In this document: piece after piece, positions 54,550 through 64,000 of the stretch
Layout of the letters: every line of letters begins with the position of its first letter
Numbering within the stretch: the stretch's first letter is position 1
Assembly: GCA_016887485.1 (NCBI GenBank)
Contig: CP069394.1
Span: forward strand, 992,001-1,056,000
DNA from: Chloroflexota bacterium
GTDB lineage: Bacteria; Chloroflexota; Anaerolineae; Anaerolineales; Anaerolineaceae
Direction of reading: 5' to 3'
Length of the DNA: 64,000 nucleotides
The notes under the pieces: model-generated
The model's database searches: none
What the model was told of the DNA's origin: nothing
What the model saw: the letters and a program-made list of their open reading frames with translations, nothing else
Program-made: the position numbers and the translations under genes

Positions 54550-56649
54550 CTATTCTGCCAAAATCAGCCGGGCATCCAGGACCTTTGCACCCTGTCCTTC
54601 CGGTAACACCAGCAGGGGATTGATCTCCACTTCGGATATCTGCGGGAAATCCACCGCCAACTGGCTCAACCGACCAATGGCATCCACAACACCGTCCAGA
54701 TCATACACCGGACCGCCCCGGAAGCCTCGCAGCAATCGTCCAGCCTTGGTGGCTTCAATCATATCCTTGGCCCTCTGCTGAGTCAGAGGTGCCACACCGA
54801 AGCCAACATCCTTGAAGAGTTCTACATAAATACCACCTAATCCAAACATCATCAAGGGGCCAAAGGTTGGGTCCCGCCGCATCCCAATGATCACTTCCAG
54901 ACCTTTGGGTGCCATTTTTTCCACCAGGAAGCTGGTTATCTTAACGTCCGGCATTTTTTCAGTAATTTCTGCGGCCATGTTCAGGGCAGCGCTTTCAACT
55001 TCATAGCCCGAGTTCAGGTTAAGGGCAATCCCACCAAAGTCCGACTTATGCAGTACCTGGGGCGAGATCACCTTCACCACAACCGGGAAGCCCAGCTCTT
55101 CAGCAATTTGGGAGGCTTCCAGAGCGTCCTTCGCCAGTGCGCCAGGCACCAGGTCCAGCCCATAAGCTGCCAGGATCGGCCGAGTTTCAGCCTCACCTAG
55201 GGCCTGCCCCGGTTTGACGGATTGAAGCAGCTTCTCCGCTTGATCCACTTTGCGATCCTCAACCGAGAATGGAGCGCCTTCACCCTTTGCCAGCCACTCT
55301 CTATAGCTGCGCATCGCACCCAACACCTGACCGGGCACTTCGGGGAAGATGCTCATCGGAATATTATTTTCATGCAGCACCTGACGGGCTTCCGCCAGGC
55401 TCCGCTCACCGACCATACAAGCCAGCACGGTCTGATCTGTGCCCCGAGTGGCATCCGCAATCGCCCTTGCCACATCACCGGGGTTCACCAATGACTGCGG
55501 CACCAGCATCGGCAATAAAACGTCCACATCCGGGTCGCCATAAAGCGTTTTCAGACAGTGGGCATATTCACCCGGTTCCGCGCCACCCAGCATATCCATT
55601 GGGTTGGCAACCTGCGCACTGGGGTTCAGTTTTTCAGCCAATTTGGCTCGCTGACCCGCTGAAATCTCCGCCAGGGTGAAACCATTGGCGGCCAGGGCAT
55701 CCGATGCCAAGGCTGCCGGGCCACCCGCGTTGGTAAAGATTGCAACCCTATCACCTTTCGGTAAGGGTTGGCAGCTTAGCGCCCAGGCCACGTCAAATAG
55801 CGCGGGCAAATCTGGAACTTCGATCACACCGGCCTGTTCAAATACCGCCTGATAGGCGGAATAGGATCCCGCCAGCGACCCTGTGTGAGATGAGACAGCT
55901 TTTGCGCCTGCTCCGGTTCGCCCAGCTTTCAGCAGGACAATCGGTTTCTTGCGAGAGACTTCGCTGGCAATCCGCAGGAATTTTGCACCGTCCTGAATGC
56001 CCTCCACATAAGCCGCAATCACTTTTACTTTGGGATGATCGCCAAAAAAGGCAATCATATCGGACTCATCCACATCCAGCTCATTACCCAGGCTGGCAAA
56101 GTGTGAAAAACCGATGGACTTATCGGCAATATAATCCACCACGCCGCCGCAAACCGCGCCGGACTGTGACACGAAGCCAATCGATCCCAATGCTGGGACG
56201 CCCTGGATAAAGGTTGTGTTCAGACCGGTGGTCAAATCCAAGGTACCCACGCAGTTTGGGCCGATCAGACGCATATTGTAAGATTCAGCGATCTCACGGC
56301 ACTCTTCTTCCAGCACCTTGCCCTGGCCACCCACTTCCCGGAACCCGCCGGAGATGATAACCACGGCTTTGATCCCCCGTTCCCCGCATGCTCGCAACAC
56401 ATCCGGCGTCATCTGTGCCGGCAGAACGACCACAGCCAGGTCCACCGGATCGGGCACATCGGCCACATCCGCATAGACCTTGAGGCCCAGGACCTCATCT
56501 GCCTTGGGATTAACAGGGTAAATCCCACCCTGAAAACCGTATTCGGTCATATTTTTCACAATACCGTAACTTAGTTTACGCGGGTTGGTAGAAGCCCCAA
56601 TGATGGCTACACCTGTTGGTGAGAAAAAGGGTGCCAAGTCATTCGTCAT
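54550..56649 (-). CDS. Acyl-CoA (acetyl-CoA) synthetase, ADP-forming, fused alpha and beta subunits
   Basis: A 699-aa NDP-forming acyl-CoA synthetase. The N-terminal CoA-binding domain is SPTGVAIIGASTNPRKLSYG; the succinyl-CoA ligase-like second domain carries the phosphorylated His in SSHTGSLAGSYSAYQAVFEQ; an ATP-grasp domain forms the last 220 residues (ARPILAAYGLDLVPGALA, VVVKVISPQVLHKSDFGG). It makes ATP from acetyl-CoA (or other acyl-CoA), ADP and phosphate, a common energy-yielding last step in fermenters. The alpha-beta order is the usual fused form. It is divergent from the repair operon. Confidence 0.93.
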   Translation of the reverse strand: MTNDLAPFFSPTGVAIIGASTNPRKLSYGIVKNMTEYGFQGGIYPVNPKADEVLGLKVYADVADVPDPVDLAVVVLPAQMTPDVLRACGERGIKAVVIISGGFREVGGQGKVLEEECREIAESYNMRLIGPNCVGTLDLTTGLNTTFIQGVPALGSIGFVSQSGAVCGGVVDYIADKSIGFSHFASLGNELDVDESDMIAFFGDHPKVKVIAAYVEGIQDGAKFLRIASEVSRKKPIVLLKAGRTGAGAKAVSSHTGSLAGSYSAYQAVFEQAGVIEVPDLPALFDVAWALSCQPLPKGDRVAIFTNAGGPAALASDALAANGFTLAEISAGQRAKLAEKLNPSAQVANPMDMLGGAEPGEYAHCLKTLYGDPDVDVLLPMLVPQSLVNPGDVARAIADATRGTDQTVLACMVGERSLAEARQVLHENNIPMSIFPEVPGQVLGAMRSYREWLAKGEGAPFSVEDRKVDQAEKLLQSVKPGQALGEAETRPILAAYGLDLVPGALAKDALEASQIAEELGFPVVVKVISPQVLHKSDFGGIALNLNSGYEVESAALNMAAEITEKMPDVKITSFLVEKMAPKGLEVIIGMRRDPTFGPLMMFGLGGIYVELFKDVGFGVAPLTQQRAKDMIEATKAGRLLRGFRGGPVYDLDGVVDAIGRLSQLAVDFPQISEVEINPLLVLPEGQGAKVLDARLILAE

Positions 56650-56737: not shown

Positions 56738-58861
56738 ATGGCATTGACGACTGAACAAAACCGCTTATTGGAAAGCCCAATCACTGGCAAAATCGCCCTG
56801 GTCGGGACCGCGGGAACGGGGAAAACCACAGCCGGCACACTTTGGTTAAAAAAGCTGCTCGAATCAGGTTTCCCGCCCCACCAAATCCTCCTGTTTGTGC
56901 CCCAGCGCACCATCGCGAAACCCTATGAGGATATCCTTTGGGACGACCTTGATCTGGCACGCAGCCTGCCCACCACCGTGACCCTGGGCGGTCTGGCGCG
57001 GCGGATGCTGGAACTGTTCTGGCCAACGATCAGCAGCCAGACCGGCGTAGCCAATCCCAATCGGCCGCCGCAATTTCTAACTCTGGAAACCGCTCAATAT
57101 TATATGGCCCATGTCGTCCGGCCTCTGATTGAAGAGAAGAATTTCTTTGACAGCCTGACGATCAACCGAAACCGGATCTTTTCCCAAATTCTGGACAACC
57201 TCAACAAAGCCGCCTTTGTCGGGTTCCCGATTGAGGAAATCGCCCCCCGATTGAAAACCGCTTGGGTTGGCGATGTGGAACAGATGCACATCTACGACGA
57301 CGTCCAGGCCAGCGGCCTGGCATTTCGGGCTTTTTGCCTGGAACATAACCTGCTGGATTTCTCACTGCAGGTCGAACTCTTTATTAAATTACTCTGGCCC
57401 TCGCCGCTCTGCCGAGATTACCTAACGGGTCAATATCGCCATCTGATCGTGGATAATATCGAAGAAGATACCCCTGTGGCGCATGACGTCCTGCAGGAGT
57501 GGCTGCCGGAGTTTGATTCTGCCCTGGTGATCCAAGATCAGGATGCTGGTTACCGGTTCTTCCTTGGTGCGGATACCCAAAGCGCCCAGCGGCTTATTAC
57601 AGGTTGTAACGAAGTCATCTCATTTACAAAGAATTTGGTCAGCTCAAAAGATATCCAAGGTCTGCAGAATGGCGTCCGCAAGGTAGTCGCCAGCCTGATG
57701 GGTGCACCAGCCAGCCAGGCTTCGCTGCCCGCGGCTGACCCCACAAAGGCGATCATAACACCTCCCGACAATCCCCGCTATTTCCCGGCAATGATCAACT
57801 GGGCAGCGGGTGAAATTCGGCGCTTGATCGAACACGGCACACCACCGGGTGAGATCGTGATCCTGGCACCTTTCATGTCGGATGTCCTGCGTTACACCCT
57901 ATCTCGCAAGCTGGATGAATACGGTGTCCCGCACCACTCCCACCGCCCGTCGCGGGCCCTGCGTGACGAGCCTGCTGCACAAACCCTGCTGAACCTCGCA
58001 ACGATTGCATTTCCCGAGTGGCAGCTCAAACCCAAACGCATCAATTTCGCCTTTGCACTGATGCAGGCTATTGACCAGTTTGACCTGATCCGGGCCCAAT
58101 TGCTATCACACTACATTTACGATGAACGCACCGAGGGCTTCCCCTTGAGGCCCTTTGAAGAGGTCCCTGCTGAAGAACGGGACCGGATCACCTACTCCGC
58201 CGGTGAACGCTATGATCAGCTGCGCAGCTGGCTGGCAACCACCCTCCCGGATGACGACCAAACCCTTGATTTCTTCCTCAACCGGCTGTTCGGCGAAGTC
58301 CTCAGCCAGCCAGGCTTTGGCTTCCATGATGATCTTGAGAGCGCCAACACCGTGGCCACTCTGATCGAATCCATCCAGAAATTCCGCTGGGTGATCGGTG
58401 AACAATTAGCTGAGGGCACCCTTTCCACCGGGAAGGAATATGTCCAGATGGTTGCAGATGGCGTCATAGCTGCGCAATACATCCAACCCTGGCAGGATAC
58501 ACCCCAGGATTCAGTTTTCCTGGCGCCTGCCTATACCTTCCTGATGCGCAACCAGCCCGTGGATGTTCAGTTCTGGCTGGATATTGGCAGCCCCTCCTGG
58601 TACCAGCGCCTCGACCAGCCCTTGACCCAGCCCTATGTGCTCTCTCGCAATTGGCCATCCAATAAGGTCTGGACAGCGGAGGATGAGGTCAATGCCGCCA
58701 ATGACACCTTGCAGCGTTTGTCACTGGGGCTACTCAACCGCTGCCGCCAGAAGGTTTATCTCGGGATGAGTGAGATGGATGTCTCCGGTTATGAGAACCG
58801 GGGCCTGCTCCTGCGAATCTTCCAGCAGGTGCTACTTGAGAGCAAACGGGGGGCTAAATGA
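56738..58861 (+). CDS. UvrD-like helicase-fold protein with degenerate motif II (AddB/AdnA-like)
   Basis: A 707-aa protein starting at ATG 56738, the point where homology to helicases begins. Walker A is GTAGTGKTT (residues 23-31). The Walker B region reads LIVDNIEED with Asp239-Asn240 instead of DExQD, so ATP hydrolysis may be impaired. Later elements (EIVILAPFMSDVLRYTLSRKL; PVDVQFWLDIGSPSWY) correspond to motifs IV-VI in altered form. No nuclease domain follows. Together with the next two genes it looks like the AddB/AdnA-type partner of a helicase-nuclease, with its nuclease on a separate polypeptide. It overlaps the helicase gene by 4 bp (ATGA). Confidence 0.78.
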   Translation: MALTTEQNRLLESPITGKIALVGTAGTGKTTAGTLWLKKLLESGFPPHQILLFVPQRTIAKPYEDILWDDLDLARSLPTTVTLGGLARRMLELFWPTISSQTGVANPNRPPQFLTLETAQYYMAHVVRPLIEEKNFFDSLTINRNRIFSQILDNLNKAAFVGFPIEEIAPRLKTAWVGDVEQMHIYDDVQASGLAFRAFCLEHNLLDFSLQVELFIKLLWPSPLCRDYLTGQYRHLIVDNIEEDTPVAHDVLQEWLPEFDSALVIQDQDAGYRFFLGADTQSAQRLITGCNEVISFTKNLVSSKDIQGLQNGVRKVVASLMGAPASQASLPAADPTKAIITPPDNPRYFPAMINWAAGEIRRLIEHGTPPGEIVILAPFMSDVLRYTLSRKLDEYGVPHHSHRPSRALRDEPAAQTLLNLATIAFPEWQLKPKRINFAFALMQAIDQFDLIRAQLLSHYIYDERTEGFPLRPFEEVPAEERDRITYSAGERYDQLRSWLATTLPDDDQTLDFFLNRLFGEVLSQPGFGFHDDLESANTVATLIESIQKFRWVIGEQLAEGTLSTGKEYVQMVADGVIAAQYIQPWQDTPQDSVFLAPAYTFLMRNQPVDVQFWLDIGSPSWYQRLDQPLTQPYVLSRNWPSNKVWTAEDEVNAANDTLQRLSLGLLNRCRQKVYLGMSEMDVSGYENRGLLLRIFQQVLLESKRGAK

Positions 58862-61104
58862 GCGACGCCACCATCAAGCTCCGCCCTGGGCAGCAGCAGA
58901 TCCTGCAATATAAGAACGGGAAGATGGGCGTCAGCGCCGTGCCCGGCAGCGGCAAGACCTGGACGCTTTCCTATCTCGCCGCAGACCTGATCAAATCCGG
59001 CGCGATCAACCCCGACCAGGAAATCCTGATCGTCACGCTGGTCAACGCCGCCGTAGATAACTTCTCCGCCAGAATCTCCACCCAACTGCAGGCCGCCGGG
59101 CTGCTCCCCGGGCTGGGTTATCGCGTACGCACCCTGCATGGCCTGGCTAATGACATCGTCCGGATGCGCCCCGATCTGGCTGGGCTGAGCCACGGTTTCC
59201 AAATCCTCGATGAGGTGGAGGGCACCCGCATAATACGCTCTGTGGCGGATGCCTGGCTCAAAGCTCACCCGGAATTCTTTGATCCCTATCTGGATGTGGA
59301 TGATTCCCAATTGGGCAAGGTCTACACTGAGAGCCGCAACCTGCCTGCCATGGTCGAATCAATTGCCGTGGCTTTCATCAGGTTGGCAAAGGACCGCCAG
59401 CTCACACCGAATAAACTCGAAAAACTCCTGAGCAGCTCTCCCATCCCGCTGCCACTGGTACAGATGGGCGTGGAACTCTACCACGAATATCAGGATGCCC
59501 TCAATTACCGCGGCAGCGTGGACTTTGACGATCTGATCCGGTTGGCCCTGCAATGCTTAGAATCCGATCCCTCTCTGGTCACTCTGTTACAAAAGCGCTG
59601 GCCCTTTATTCTGGAAGATGAAGCCCAGGATTCAAGCCTCCTGCAACAGAAGATCCTCTCCCTGCTGACCGGCAAATCCGGCAACTGGGTGCGCGTTGGC
59701 GATCCAAATCAAGCCATCTATGAAACCTTCACCACAGCCAGTCCTCATTACCTGCTGGACTTCATTCAGCGGCCAGATGTCACTCCCCGATCTCTGCCGG
59801 AAAGCGGCCGCTCCACTCTCAGCATCCTCTCCCTTGCCAATCACCTGATCAACTGGACTCAGGATCATCACCCCAACTGGGATGCCCGCAGCGCGCTTAA
59901 CCCACCGCTTATCCAGCCCACGCCACCCGATGACCCCCAACCCAACCCACCGGACTGCCCCGAGTGTATTCAGTTGATTGAAGATCTCATGACACCGGAT
60001 CAGGAAGTGCGGTTTGTGGTCGATTCAATCGAAGCCTGGCTTGCGGAACATCCTGACAAGACCGTTGCGATCCTCTCACCGAGAAACGCCCGCGGTTTCA
60101 AGTTCGCTGATGAATGCCAGGACCGGGGTATCCCGGTGGTGGACAGCCTGCTGCGTTCCACTTCCTCCACCCGGCTTTCCACCAGCGCGATCTACCACAT
60201 CCTGAATTACCTTTGTGACCCGCGTGACAGCGGCAAACTCTCCACGGCTTACCGGGTGTGGCGGCGCAAGGAACGCGAAGATGAACAGCGCTGGCCCTTC
60301 TTCAAAGCCATCGCAGACCAAATCAAATCCCTGGAACGTGTGGAAGATTACCTCTGGCCGCAGATGGACCATTCATGGCTCGATACGCTTATCGCGGATT
60401 CCGCTGAGGCCGCCATGCTGGATGAACTCGAGACCTTCCGGGACGTGATCCAGCGCTGGCAGAACTCCGTTTTCCTGCCCATAGACCAACTCGTCCTGAC
60501 TCTTTCACAGGACCTGTTCCTCGAGCCCGCCGAACTGGCCCTGGCCCATAAACTCTCCGTGCTCCTCCGCCAGCTTGCCAACGCCCACCCGGATTGGCGC
60601 TTGCCGGAGTTCACGGAAGAGATGAAGCAGATCGCCAATAACCAGCGCCGCTTCCTGGGCTTTTCGGATGAAGACTCAGCCTTTGATCCCGACCTCTATC
60701 CCGGCCAGGTGGTCATTGCCACCATGCACAAGGCCAAAGGTCTGGAGTGGGACGCCGTTTACCTGACCGCGGTCAATAATTACAATTTCCCCTCGGGCGA
60801 GGATTATGATCAATATCAGTCCGAGAAATGGTTCGTACGGGATCACCTCAATCTGGAAGCCGAGACCCTGGCCCAACTCACTGCTCTGACTGCCAAACGC
60901 GGCCTCAACTGGTATCAGGAAGGTGCGGCCTCATTGGAAGCCCGTCAGGAATTCATCCGTGAAAGGCTGCGGCTTTTCTTCGTAGGTGTTACCCGGGCCA
61001 GAAGCTGGCTGACGGTGACGGCCAATTCCGGCCGAATATCCGCTAAGAATGTCATCGCCCGGGCTTTCCTTGAATTGATCAATGACTGGGAGAAACGCCA
61101 ATGA
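58858..61104 (+). CDS. UvrD/Rep-type superfamily 1 DNA helicase
   Basis: A 748-aa SF1A helicase with all motifs: Walker A AVPGSGKT (27-34), motif Ia VTLVNAAVDNF, motif II LEDEAQD (Asp254-Glu255), motif III VRVGDPNQAIYETF, motif IV-like region TVAILSPRN, motif V ATMHKAKGLEWDAVYL and motif VI RLRLFFVGVTRARSWL. There is no C-terminal nuclease domain, unlike AddA or RecB. It should translocate 3' to 5' on DNA. It overlaps both neighbours by 4 bp (ATGA), so the three proteins are probably made in fixed ratio and may form one complex. Confidence 0.93.
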   Translation: MSDATIKLRPGQQQILQYKNGKMGVSAVPGSGKTWTLSYLAADLIKSGAINPDQEILIVTLVNAAVDNFSARISTQLQAAGLLPGLGYRVRTLHGLANDIVRMRPDLAGLSHGFQILDEVEGTRIIRSVADAWLKAHPEFFDPYLDVDDSQLGKVYTESRNLPAMVESIAVAFIRLAKDRQLTPNKLEKLLSSSPIPLPLVQMGVELYHEYQDALNYRGSVDFDDLIRLALQCLESDPSLVTLLQKRWPFILEDEAQDSSLLQQKILSLLTGKSGNWVRVGDPNQAIYETFTTASPHYLLDFIQRPDVTPRSLPESGRSTLSILSLANHLINWTQDHHPNWDARSALNPPLIQPTPPDDPQPNPPDCPECIQLIEDLMTPDQEVRFVVDSIEAWLAEHPDKTVAILSPRNARGFKFADECQDRGIPVVDSLLRSTSSTRLSTSAIYHILNYLCDPRDSGKLSTAYRVWRRKEREDEQRWPFFKAIADQIKSLERVEDYLWPQMDHSWLDTLIADSAEAAMLDELETFRDVIQRWQNSVFLPIDQLVLTLSQDLFLEPAELALAHKLSVLLRQLANAHPDWRLPEFTEEMKQIANNQRRFLGFSDEDSAFDPDLYPGQVVIATMHKAKGLEWDAVYLTAVNNYNFPSGEDYDQYQSEKWFVRDHLNLEAETLAQLTALTAKRGLNWYQEGAASLEARQEFIRERLRLFFVGVTRARSWLTVTANSGRISAKNVIARAFLELINDWEKRQ

Positions 61105-61940
61105 ACATGCCAGAAACCTTTGATTTCACCCAGAGCAACCTGCAGGATTACATTGACTGCCCCTATCGCTTCAACCTGCGCTATATCCAGCATGCCAAAT
61201 GGCCGGCTCTGATAGTGGACGATGCCCTCGAATTCGAACAGCGCGGCCAGACCGGAGGCCGTTTTCACCGGCTGATCCAGCAATACCTGTTGGGCATTCC
61301 CGAGGAGCGCCTAACCGACCAGGTGGCTGCGGATCCCAGCCCTGAGATGATGTTTTGGTGGGAGGACTTCCTGCAATTTGTACCGCCCCTGTTGGAAGGG
61401 ACTCGCTATGTCGAGACCATCCTCAGCACCGGTCTGGCAGGTCACAGAGTGGTGGCAAAGTTCGACCTCGTTCTGGTGCAATCCTCAGGCAAGCTGGTGA
61501 TATTCGACTGGAAAACGAGCCGCAGACAGCCCAAACAAAAATGGCTGGAAGAACGGATTCAAACCCGTCTCTACCGGTTCCTTTTGGCGCAATCCGGCTG
61601 CGTGCTAAATGGCGGTGAGGAGACTCCACCTGAGCAAATCGAAATGAACTACTGGTTCACGTCCCAACCGGAACTGCCCATCAGCCTGCCCTATTCCCAA
61701 GGGCAATATGAGCAGGACCTGGCCTTTTTCACCAATCTGATCCGTGAGATTGCAGAACTGCCCGATAACGGCTTCCTCCGCACAGCAGACCTTACCAAAT
61801 GTCGCTACTGTGTCTACCGTTCACATTGTGACCGGGGGACCGTGGCGGGTAATTTGGATGAGTTTGAGGATTTCGAGCTGACTACTGTGGAAAATGATGA
61901 CGAACTGGATTTTGACCAGATTGAAGAGATCGCATTCTGA
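61101..61940 (+). CDS. Stand-alone PD-(D/E)XK nuclease with iron-sulfur cysteines (RecB/Cas4-like)
   Basis: A 279-aa nuclease of the PDDEXK_1 (RecB C-terminal) family. Predicted catalytic residues are His56 (GGRFHRLIQQ), Asp122 (AKFDLVLV) and Asp136-x-Lys138 (FDWKTSRR). Cys20 in DCPYRFNLRY and Cys234, Cys237, Cys243 near the end form the four-Cys pattern that holds a 4Fe-4S cluster in AddB, AdnB and Cas4. It is a separate protein, not fused to a helicase. No cas genes or repeats are nearby. It overlaps the helicase gene by 4 bp and recJ by 1 bp (TGATG). Confidence 0.88.
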   Translation: MNMPETFDFTQSNLQDYIDCPYRFNLRYIQHAKWPALIVDDALEFEQRGQTGGRFHRLIQQYLLGIPEERLTDQVAADPSPEMMFWWEDFLQFVPPLLEGTRYVETILSTGLAGHRVVAKFDLVLVQSSGKLVIFDWKTSRRQPKQKWLEERIQTRLYRFLLAQSGCVLNGGEETPPEQIEMNYWFTSQPELPISLPYSQGQYEQDLAFFTNLIREIAELPDNGFLRTADLTKCRYCVYRSHCDRGTVAGNLDEFEDFELTTVENDDELDFDQIEEIAF

Positions 61941-64000
61941 TGCTTGAAGAGGTCCGCTGGATTGAGCCTGAACCAATCACAATCCCGGAGGATTTCCGCC
62001 GGACGATTGGCGGCCACCCTCTCGTCGCTGAGACGCTTTGGCGGCGCGGTTTCCGCACGGTCGAAGCCGCTCAGGCCTTCATGGACCCGGACGCTTACCA
62101 CCCGACCTCCGCGGATGAACTCCCTGATGCGCACATCGCCTACGAACTAATCACCAAAGCGGTCAACAATCAGGAGCACATCCTGATCTGGGGTGATTTC
62201 GATGTGGACGGTCAGACCTCCACCACGATTCTTTTTGAAGGATTGCGCGGCCTGGGCGCGGATGTGCGCTATCATATCCCCATTCGGGCAAAAGAATCGC
62301 ACGGCATCACAGCCGATGTATTGCAGGAATATCTGGATGAGGGCTTTGACCTGCTGATCACCTGCGACACCGGGATCACGGAATATGACAACATCCAGAC
62401 GGTCAAAGACGCTGGCATTCCTGTGGTGCTGACCGACCATCACACCTTGGGGGCAACCCTGCCGCCTGCGGATGCCGTGGTCAATCCCCAGCGGCTGCCG
62501 GAGGATCACACCCTGCGCACTCTGCCGGGTGTGGGTGTGGTCTGCAAGCTGATGGAGGGGCTCTATAGCTATTTAGATGAACCTTTTGACAGCGGCCCTT
62601 TCTATGAGCTGGCTGCTTTGGGCATTGTGGCGGATGTTGCCCTCTTGCATGGCGATACCCGCTGGCTCCTGCAAAAGGGGCTGACCCATCTGCGCCATAC
62701 CGAACGCCTGGGACTGCAAACCCTTTTCACCAACGCCAAAATCAATCCCCAACAGCTCACCGAGACCCACATCGGTTTCCAGATCGCACCACGCTTGAAC
62801 GCGGTGGGCCGGCTGAGTGATGCGAATTCGATTGTTGAATTTCTGACCACAACTGATCCCGGCCGTGCCAGGGTGATCGGCTCCACAATTGAAGCCCTCA
62901 ATGCCCAGCGCCAGATGATCACCCGCCAGGTGGCCCAAGCCGCCGAGAAGATCCTTCAGGATTCACCGGATGACCGCCACGCCCCAGCCATCGTCCTCCA
63001 CTATCCGGAATGGCCGGGTGGTGTGGTCGGTATTGTCGCCAACCGGCTGGTCGAGCATTTTCATAAACCCGCCATCCTGCTCACTGGTTCCGATCCATTC
63101 CACGGGTCTGCCAGGTCGGTTGAGGGCATCAATATCACCCAGGCGATTGGCTCCCAATCAGACCTCCTCCTGGGCTATGGCGGCCATCCGATGGCAGCGG
63201 GTATGGCTCTCTCGCCTGAGAATTACGCCAAATTCAAACGCGGCCTGTTCCAGGCTGTTGAAGAACAAGCCAAAACAGCTGAACACATCGCTGAAATTGA
63301 GATCAACCAGACAATCACCCTCTCAGAGATCAATTTCGACGTGATCGCAGAGATCGAACGCCTGGCGCCGTTTGGCGCGGGAAATCCCCCGCTAAATTTC
63401 CTGATCCGGGATCTTGAATACGTCTCAGCTACGGAAATTGGCCAAACCGGTGACCATCGAAAATTGATTGCCAGAGACCAGGTGGGCGATCAGCATCAGT
63501 TCATCTGGTGGAATGGTGCCAGTGAACCTCTCCCTCCGAACGAATTTGACCTGCTTTGCCAACTCTCACAAAGTGACTATCGGGGAACTGCCCAGATCAA
63601 CGCGGAATGGATGCACTCCCGCCCTGTGGCAACGGATAAAGCCAAAAAGCCAAAACATGCGTTGGAATGGGTGGATATGCGGATGAAGCCCGTCCCGATT
63701 TCTCTCTTGAAGGACATCCTAGAAATAGAAAAAGATGTTCAGGTTTGGGCTGAATCCAATCCACCAGAAGGCGTGCCCACCATCACCCGTATGGGATTGA
63801 CCGAGAGCGAGGCGTTGGTCATCTGGACCACGCCGCCCTCCCAGAGGATACTGTCTGAGGTCATCCGGCAGGTCAAGCCCCAAAAAGTCATCGTGTTCGG
63901 CATAGATCCGAGCCTGGAGGATTGGAAAACTTTTATCAAAGTGGTTGCGGGGCTGGCGAAATACACCCTTTCCAAACAAGCAGGCGAAACCACCTTACCA
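61940..64000 (+). CDS. recJ: Single-stranded-DNA-specific exonuclease RecJ (3' end outside window)
   Basis: 687 codons are visible and the frame is open at the window end. DHH-family motifs: DFDVDG (86-91), TCDTGI (Asp143), TDHH (165-168) and, later, the DHHA1 motif GYGGHPMAAG after GGVVGIVANRLVEHF. An OB-fold follows, and the last visible 100 residues are a C-terminal addition seen in longer RecJ proteins. RecJ degrades single strands 5' to 3' in recombination and mismatch repair. Its ATG overlaps the nuclease stop by one base, tying it to the helicase-nuclease genes. Confidence 0.93.
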   Translation, partial: MLEEVRWIEPEPITIPEDFRRTIGGHPLVAETLWRRGFRTVEAAQAFMDPDAYHPTSADELPDAHIAYELITKAVNNQEHILIWGDFDVDGQTSTTILFEGLRGLGADVRYHIPIRAKESHGITADVLQEYLDEGFDLLITCDTGITEYDNIQTVKDAGIPVVLTDHHTLGATLPPADAVVNPQRLPEDHTLRTLPGVGVVCKLMEGLYSYLDEPFDSGPFYELAALGIVADVALLHGDTRWLLQKGLTHLRHTERLGLQTLFTNAKINPQQLTETHIGFQIAPRLNAVGRLSDANSIVEFLTTTDPGRARVIGSTIEALNAQRQMITRQVAQAAEKILQDSPDDRHAPAIVLHYPEWPGGVVGIVANRLVEHFHKPAILLTGSDPFHGSARSVEGINITQAIGSQSDLLLGYGGHPMAAGMALSPENYAKFKRGLFQAVEEQAKTAEHIAEIEINQTITLSEINFDVIAEIERLAPFGAGNPPLNFLIRDLEYVSATEIGQTGDHRKLIARDQVGDQHQFIWWNGASEPLPPNEFDLLCQLSQSDYRGTAQINAEWMHSRPVATDKAKKPKHALEWVDMRMKPVPISLLKDILEIEKDVQVWAESNPPEGVPTITRMGLTESEALVIWTTPPSQRILSEVIRQVKPQKVIVFGIDPSLEDWKTFIKVVAGLAKYTLSKQAGETTLP

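Follow-up and report, generated by a model that had tools for sequence, protein, structure and literature searches.

In bacteria, the resection of DNA breaks is attributed to RecBCD, AddAB, AdnAB or RecQ–RecJ. AddAB (Bacillus subtilis type) unites an active UvrD-like motor, a helicase-like partner and a PD-(D/E)XK nuclease of the iron–sulfur (Fe-S) type; both of its chains carry fused nuclease domains (1232 and ~1150 amino acids for the chains compared here). In AdnAB (Mycobacterium type), both chains are motor–nuclease fusions (1045 and 1095 amino acids for the chains compared), and chains A and B of the structure used are assumed to be AdnA and AdnB, respectively, which agrees with the chain lengths. 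Here we describe a four-gene operon of a Chloroflexota bacterium (Anaerolineaceae) which encodes a pseudo-helicase, a helicase, a nuclease and a RecJ (P1 to P4) on separate polypeptides. It lies in a stretch of 64,000 nucleotides, hereafter the window (contig CP069394.1, positions 992,001 to 1,056,000; G000:C1:992001-1056000), of a 2.9 Mb genome which is in two contigs and 95.5% complete.

A third group of related proteins is formed by the UvrD–Cas4 fusions, in which a UvrD-like helicase is linked with a nuclease of family pfam12705. They have been proposed to be defence components and may overlap with RecB in function (PMC5704561). The section devoted to them also mentions an unfused pair of UvrD and Cas4-like proteins in Clostridiales, read as possible DNA repair, which is the nearest printed precedent found for the P1–P2–P3 trio; the section names no pseudo-helicase and no recJ. 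The fusions found in our sample are likened to this clade by domain make-up only. No description of the trio was found in the open-licence PMC literature, at the level of listings and abstracts.

The operon consists of the following features:

56738-58861, + strand: P1, pseudo-helicase of the UvrD/AddB/AdnA type, 707 amino acids (open reading frame (ORF), alignments, predicted model)
58858-61104, + strand: P2, complete SF1A (UvrD-like) helicase without nuclease domain, 748 amino acids (ORF, Pfam, alignment)
61101-61940, + strand: P3, free PDDEXK_1 (AdnA/AddB/Cas4-like) nuclease with four cluster-type cysteines, 279 amino acids (ORF, Pfam, alignment, model)
61887-61937, + strand: acidic C-terminal tail of P3, predicted with low confidence, SSB-tip-like, ending in LDFDQIEEIAF (model, tail comparison)
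61940 to beyond 64000, open at the window end, + strand: P4, long RecJ with a C-terminal region beyond the OB domain (Pfam, NCBIfam)

A first-pass annotation of the window had noted that the genes overlap, and the ORF calls agree: P1/P2 and P2/P3 share 4 bp (ATGA in both cases) and P3/P4 share 1 bp. It had also recognized recJ as the fourth gene. P4 has DHH, DHHA1 and OB domains and scores 466.5 bits with the recJ model TIGR00644, above the cut-off, but the gene extends past the window end, the whole protein having 771 amino acids (L043:9941-12256). The order P1-P2-P3-P4 is found again in other families of the class, so that the operon is not a product of chance.

The reading that we favor, with a probability of about 0.6, is that P1, P2 and P3 form a three-subunit DNA-end helicase–nuclease, built like AddAB or AdnAB with each part on its own polypeptide. 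P2 would be the ATP-driven 3'-5' motor which unwinds the DNA end. P1 would grip and guide the DNA, standing in for the helicase-like body of AddB, and P3, the sole PD-(D/E)XK nuclease, would cut an unwound strand. The three proteins are proposed to act together because their genes overlap and because 69 of the 82 genomes which have any of them have all three, also when the genes are apart. In its own genome, the trio sits where RecBCD, AddAB or AdnAB would be expected and none was detected. With the nuclease on its own chain, helicase and nuclease could be tested and regulated separately, unlike in the fused enzymes.

The sequence of P1 matches the UvrD-helicase family of Pfam with 20.7 bits, under the cut-off of 23, and no NCBIfam family at E 0.1. 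The best matches of the single sequence to PDB sequences have E values of only 0.47 and 0.5; with a profile, the best is HelD (2.4e-5), over a short stretch. The fold was therefore assigned from a structure search, which did give matches. The AlphaFold model (57 sequences, mean pLDDT 87.9) has the full UvrD-type SF1A fold and superposes on UvrD (Z 29.0, 451 residues, root-mean-square deviation (rmsd) 3.3), on the motor of AdnAB chain B (Z 24.6, 623 of the 707 residues, rmsd 4.6) and on AddB (Z 21.8, 605 residues, rmsd 5.8). These matches of the predicted fold do not tell which of the three is the nearest kin.

By its catalytic motifs, on the other hand, P1 does not qualify as an SF1A helicase. 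The Walker A Lys29 is invariant (57/57 rows), but motif II reads VDNIEED (DN-x-EE), with Asn240 at the position of the Glu of active helicases, and the Gln of motif III and the Arg of motif IV are replaced, according to a profile alignment with the local UvrD–Cas4 fusions. The substitution of DN for DE had been spotted at first pass, and the Asn stands in all 57 rows of one alignment and all 24 of another. Since Walker A is kept while motifs II, III and IV are altered, P1 probably binds ATP and hydrolyzes it poorly.

P2 had been described as a complete SF1 helicase devoid of nuclease, which is what Pfam returns: UvrD-helicase (156.6 bits) and UvrD_C, and no nuclease domain. The motif residues GxGKT, DEAQD, GDPNQ, HxAKGLEWD and TRA are invariant in 16 rows.

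P3 matches PDDEXK_1 with 92.3 bits. Among the residues singled out at first pass, His56, Asp122, Lys138 and the four cysteines (20, 234, 237 and 243) are invariant in 42 of 42 rows, and Asp136 is kept in at least 90%. The four cluster-type cysteines suggest that P3 probably binds an Fe-S cluster. The model (pLDDT 87.4, with low confidence for the last residues) has an AdnA-like nuclease fold and fits best the nuclease of AdnAB chain A (9np6; Z 18.5, 224 residues, rmsd 2.7), then AddB (Z 15.3, 239 residues, rmsd 3.5); the Cas4-family ACE1 (Z 14.9), RecE (13.6), Cas4 (11.0) and RecB (10.3) come lower. Neither P1 nor P3 matches the NCBIfam AddB model at E 0.1.

The distribution of the trio was examined in 150 genomes of the class, at least 70% complete, searched with P1, P2 and P3. 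The P2 threshold was E at most 1e-120; weak matches were dropped (P1 of G032, G086 and G116; P3 of G065, G074, G104, G119, G135, G139 and G147), one fragment was retained (P3 of G092), and the genome handles were transferred by hand for the tally. P1 is present in 80 genomes, P2 in 76 and P3 in 73. P1 and P2 occur together in 75 genomes, P1 alone of the two in 5, P2 alone in 1, and neither in 69. Each of the 76 genomes with P2, from many families, has a single strong place for it. Of the 51 family labels in the sample, 30 include a genome with all three proteins, and P1, P2 and P3 are all kept although far apart in G027, G111 and G067. The trio is thus widespread in Anaerolineae. With the P1 profile at E 1e-8, 63 of 400 genomes of the phylum (at least 85% complete) gave a match, 48 of them in the same class; the 15 from outside it are partial, score no more than 62.2 bits and lie in frames of 376-1432 amino acids. 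In a contig scan over phyla with uneven cover, the best 80 matches all carry titles of Chloroflexota type.

The survey of the four-gene neighborhood that had been suggested at first pass shows that the gene order recurs across families of the class. Among 40 of the 80 genomes with P1, picked for long contigs, the neighborhood reads P1-P2-P3-P4 in 14, P1-P2-P3 in 4 and P1-P2 in 8, while P1 has no P2 in line in 14. The 80 named loci nearest the query, where runs were counted from P1 with gaps below 300 bp, comprise 23 P1-P2-P3-P4, 10 P1-P2-P3, 10 that start with P1-P2 without P3 and 37 with P1 alone; in 16 of the 80, including 4 of the 37, the run is cut off by the end of the contig.

By its architecture, the trio falls outside the described classes. 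It is not counted as a member of AddAB, since P2 has no fused nuclease, P1 and P3 are separate genes, and the curated cut-offs are not reached (P2 scores 68.7 bits with the AddA model TIGR02785, cut-off 707.65). It has three separate chains and one nuclease in place of the two motor–nuclease fusions of AdnAB, although P3 superposes best on the chain A nuclease and P1 on 623 residues of the chain B motor. With RecBCD, the score of P2 is 94.8 bits for a cut-off of 696.05 (TIGR00609, RecB type), and P1 has no NCBIfam match. The UvrD–Cas4 fusions have helicase and nuclease on one chain and the trio has them in separate genes. An AddAB- or AdnAB-like function may nevertheless be carried out by the three proteins.

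The absence of recBCD, addAB and adnAB expected at first pass is borne out for the window's own genome, at its 95.5% completeness, by searches with PDDEXK_1 and UvrD-helicase: the only PDDEXK_1 matches are P3 and one small Cas4-like protein, and the largest open frame among the UvrD-helicase matches has 766 amino acids, so that no fused helicase–nuclease is apparent. In G055 and G027, which also have P1, P2 and P3, two loci (L163 and L164) encode adjacent proteins of 1010-1096 and 1111-1186 amino acids, for which the AddB and AddA models are best, below the strict cut-offs. A general replacement of AddAB by the trio was considered and rejected, as both coexist in G055 and G027. Of the 81 genomes that have P1 or P2, at least 27 contain a PDDEXK_1 match in a frame of at least 750 amino acids, as do at least 13 of the 69 others (Fisher 0.063, from hand-copied handles).

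In trees with local AddA, AddB, UvrD–Cas4 fusions and UvrD, P1, P2 and P3 each form one separate clade on a long stem, outside the AddA and AddB clades; these trees have local sampling and several long branches, and actinobacterial AdnAB was left out. In the nuclease tree, P3 falls on the same side as AddB and two divergent pairs, a placement of modest support (87/88). Among the profiles made, the local UvrD–Cas4 fusions score best with all three proteins (P1 138.4, P2 467.8, P3 137.6); AddB reaches 80.6 with the P3 profile, so that the nearest kin of P3 differs between profiles and tree. Such fusions of UvrD and PDDEXK domains, of 930-1026 amino acids, were seen in Chloroflexota at L170, L171, L172 and L183-L186, and some of these genomes also have the trio. 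Outside the class, L188:518-6540 and L190:78-6307 contain adjacent pairs of helicase–nuclease-like proteins of ~1000 amino acids, divergent from the local AddAB in the trees, which could be AdnAB-like.

Several observations weigh against a dedicated three-protein complex. The Fisher tests of the co-occurrence of P1, P2 and P3 are extreme, but they ignore kinship. In some genomes of the class the trio genes are dispersed, and G055 and G027 have an AddAB-like pair in addition to the trio. Six genomes (G041, G073, G083, G112, G119 and G138) have P1 and P2 without detected P3; P3 may therefore not be essential, or another protein may take its place. The G112 contig ends within P2; in L070, from a genome without detected P3, neither of the two genes which follow P2 (nucleotidyl transferase and acyl-CoA dehydrogenase) is a substitute nuclease. 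The first-pass annotation had regarded a standard AddAB or AdnAB elsewhere in the genome, with the trio genes scattered in relatives, as damaging to its proposal: AddAB-like pairs and dispersed genes both occur among relatives, and in the window's own genome no AddAB or AdnAB was detected. An alternative view is that the genes make up a mere repair cluster with no stable complex, in which the helicase P2 and the Cas4-like nuclease P3 act in turn, together with RecJ, while P1, their relative, has a regulatory role. In 37 of 80 loci (4 at contig ends), no P2 lies within 300 bp of P1, P2 is out of line in 14 of 40 neighborhoods, six genomes have P1 and P2 but no detected P3, the adjacency of RecJ is partial, and the unfused Clostridiales pair was itself read as possible DNA repair (PMC5704561). 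We find this view rather unlikely, since genomes with any of the trio mostly have all three (69/82) even when they are apart, and P1, which seems poor at ATP hydrolysis, would have no obvious solo role.

The domain set, and the matches of the P1 and P3 models to AddB and AdnAB chains, would also be explained by the recent breaking of a fused AddAB or AdnAB pair into separate genes. We consider this improbable because the clades of P1, P2 and P3 stand apart from local AddA and AddB on long stems, within the limits of the tree sampling, and because AddAB-like pairs coexist with the trio. Thus, of the "split AddAB/AdnAB" proposed at first pass, the separate pseudo-helicase, helicase and nuclease in a conserved operon stand, and recent descent from AddAB is unlikely. 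An ancient fission of that kind is compatible with the data, considering that P3 lies on the AddB side of the nuclease tree, with modest support, and that actinobacterial AdnAB is outside the trees. A role as an anti-phage defence module is very improbable: UvrD–Cas4 fusions were proposed as defence components (PMC5704561) and P2 matches the PADLOC models of GajB (best 144.6 bits), but the AddA-like L163 protein scores 141.7 bits with the same models, which makes these generic helicase matches. Moreover, P2 has one strong place in each of 76 genomes of many families, and the operon often includes recJ.

Within the favored helicase–nuclease, P3 has a C-terminal tail that is absent from the fused relatives checked. 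Tails throughout the family are acidic (mean net 7.8 over the final 22 residues), and among 76 distinct tails the final residue is Phe, Tyr or Trp in 67 and the terminus is [ILVM]x[FYW] in 61. This terminus occurs in 18 of 1336 other mechanical ORFs of more than 250 amino acids in the same loci, and in none of 122 P1, 98 P2 and 55 RecJ tails, these controls being taken unfiltered for complete ends. The SSB-like tip is absent from all 23 fused relatives checked, and the 7 local UvrD–Cas4 fusions lack the P3 tail. The family consensus is DFEQIAEIEF, and some relatives end in IAPIPF; in the window's own genome, two of the four SSB-family matches end in EDFPF and DEIPF. The simplest reading of these sequences is that the P3 tail may be an SSB-like docking tip. 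A beta-clamp-binding motif, or one which docks on P1 or P2, is a serious alternative, to which we would give somewhat less than an even chance. The succession of Gln, Ile and Phe in the consensus resembles that of clamp motifs, P3 genes with no recJ next to them also keep the tip, and Tyr and residues past the aromatic are tolerated. However, the spacing differs by one residue from that of the clamp consensus, some tails lack the Gln (LESIAPIPF), and the acidic, extreme C-terminal I-x-F form is like the SSB tip and the two SSB tails of the same genome.

In Deinococcus, RecJ uses its C-terminal domain to bind the tip of SSB, whose last Phe enters a deep pocket (PMC4846377). The tip of P3 would tether it to a protein that has a pocket for SSB tips, for which RecJ is the leading candidate, given this precedent and given that recJ is often the next gene. 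With P2 unwinding the duplex and RecJ degrading the 5' strand, a 3' overhang would be left for RecA. The P4 profile aligns with the long RecJ of PDB 8y30 up to model position 686 of 767; the alignment with Deinococcus RecJ ends at residue 535, short of the pocket residues named in PMC4846377, so that a pocket of this kind in P4 is hypothetical. RecJ lies at most 2.5 kb downstream of P3, on the same strand, for 52 of 76 distinct complete P3 genes (5 of these 52 have no P2 just upstream of P3), and the RecJ ORFs near trio loci have 759-868 amino acids, except in L145, where RecJ is in two pieces.

Several facts count against RecJ as the only partner of an SSB-like tip. The remaining 24 P3 genes have no such neighbor, and 17 of them keep the strict tip, versus 44 of the 52 with RecJ; the association between tail loss and RecJ adjacency (Fisher 0.007) is weak, as the motif was chosen after viewing the tails and kinship is uncorrected. 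Tyr ends 22 of the 76 tails, L103 and L104 have residues past the aromatic, and the other two SSB-family ORFs of the genome (L207) have no such tip. RecJ may thus not be the partner of the P3 tail. The combination of RecJ with a double-strand machine, suggested at first pass, is retained in part: RecJ is a frequent companion of the trio and not a fixed part of it, and the window's own genome encodes a second RecJ (G000:C1:2003420-2005033, L203; 580-amino-acid frame, 532 bits).

More tentatively, the operon could represent a further class of bacterial end-resection machine, in which a P1–P2 core works with a detachable Fe-S nuclease whose SSB-mimicking tip recruits a dedicated long RecJ or further proteins that recognize SSB tips; this wider proposal is doubtful at present. 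If it were true, unwinding and two strand-specific nucleases would be coupled via a borrowed SSB docking code, and the tip on the nuclease would link the AddAB-like and RecJ routes directly.

Elsewhere in the genome, an SSB paralogue with the tail DDEIPF is found upstream of a Cas4-like nuclease (L206:1495-3125 and L002:1456-1974; G000:C1 ~2075572-2077717). This nuclease has membrane-like segments and, by eye, seems to be split over two ORFs. L005:874-2982 encodes a UvrD-like protein of 702 amino acids which, by eye, seems to have a RelE-like N-terminal part. The divergent neighbor of the operon in the window (54550-56649) resembles an ADP-forming acyl-CoA synthetase, with CoA-binding, ligase and ATP-grasp domains on one chain.

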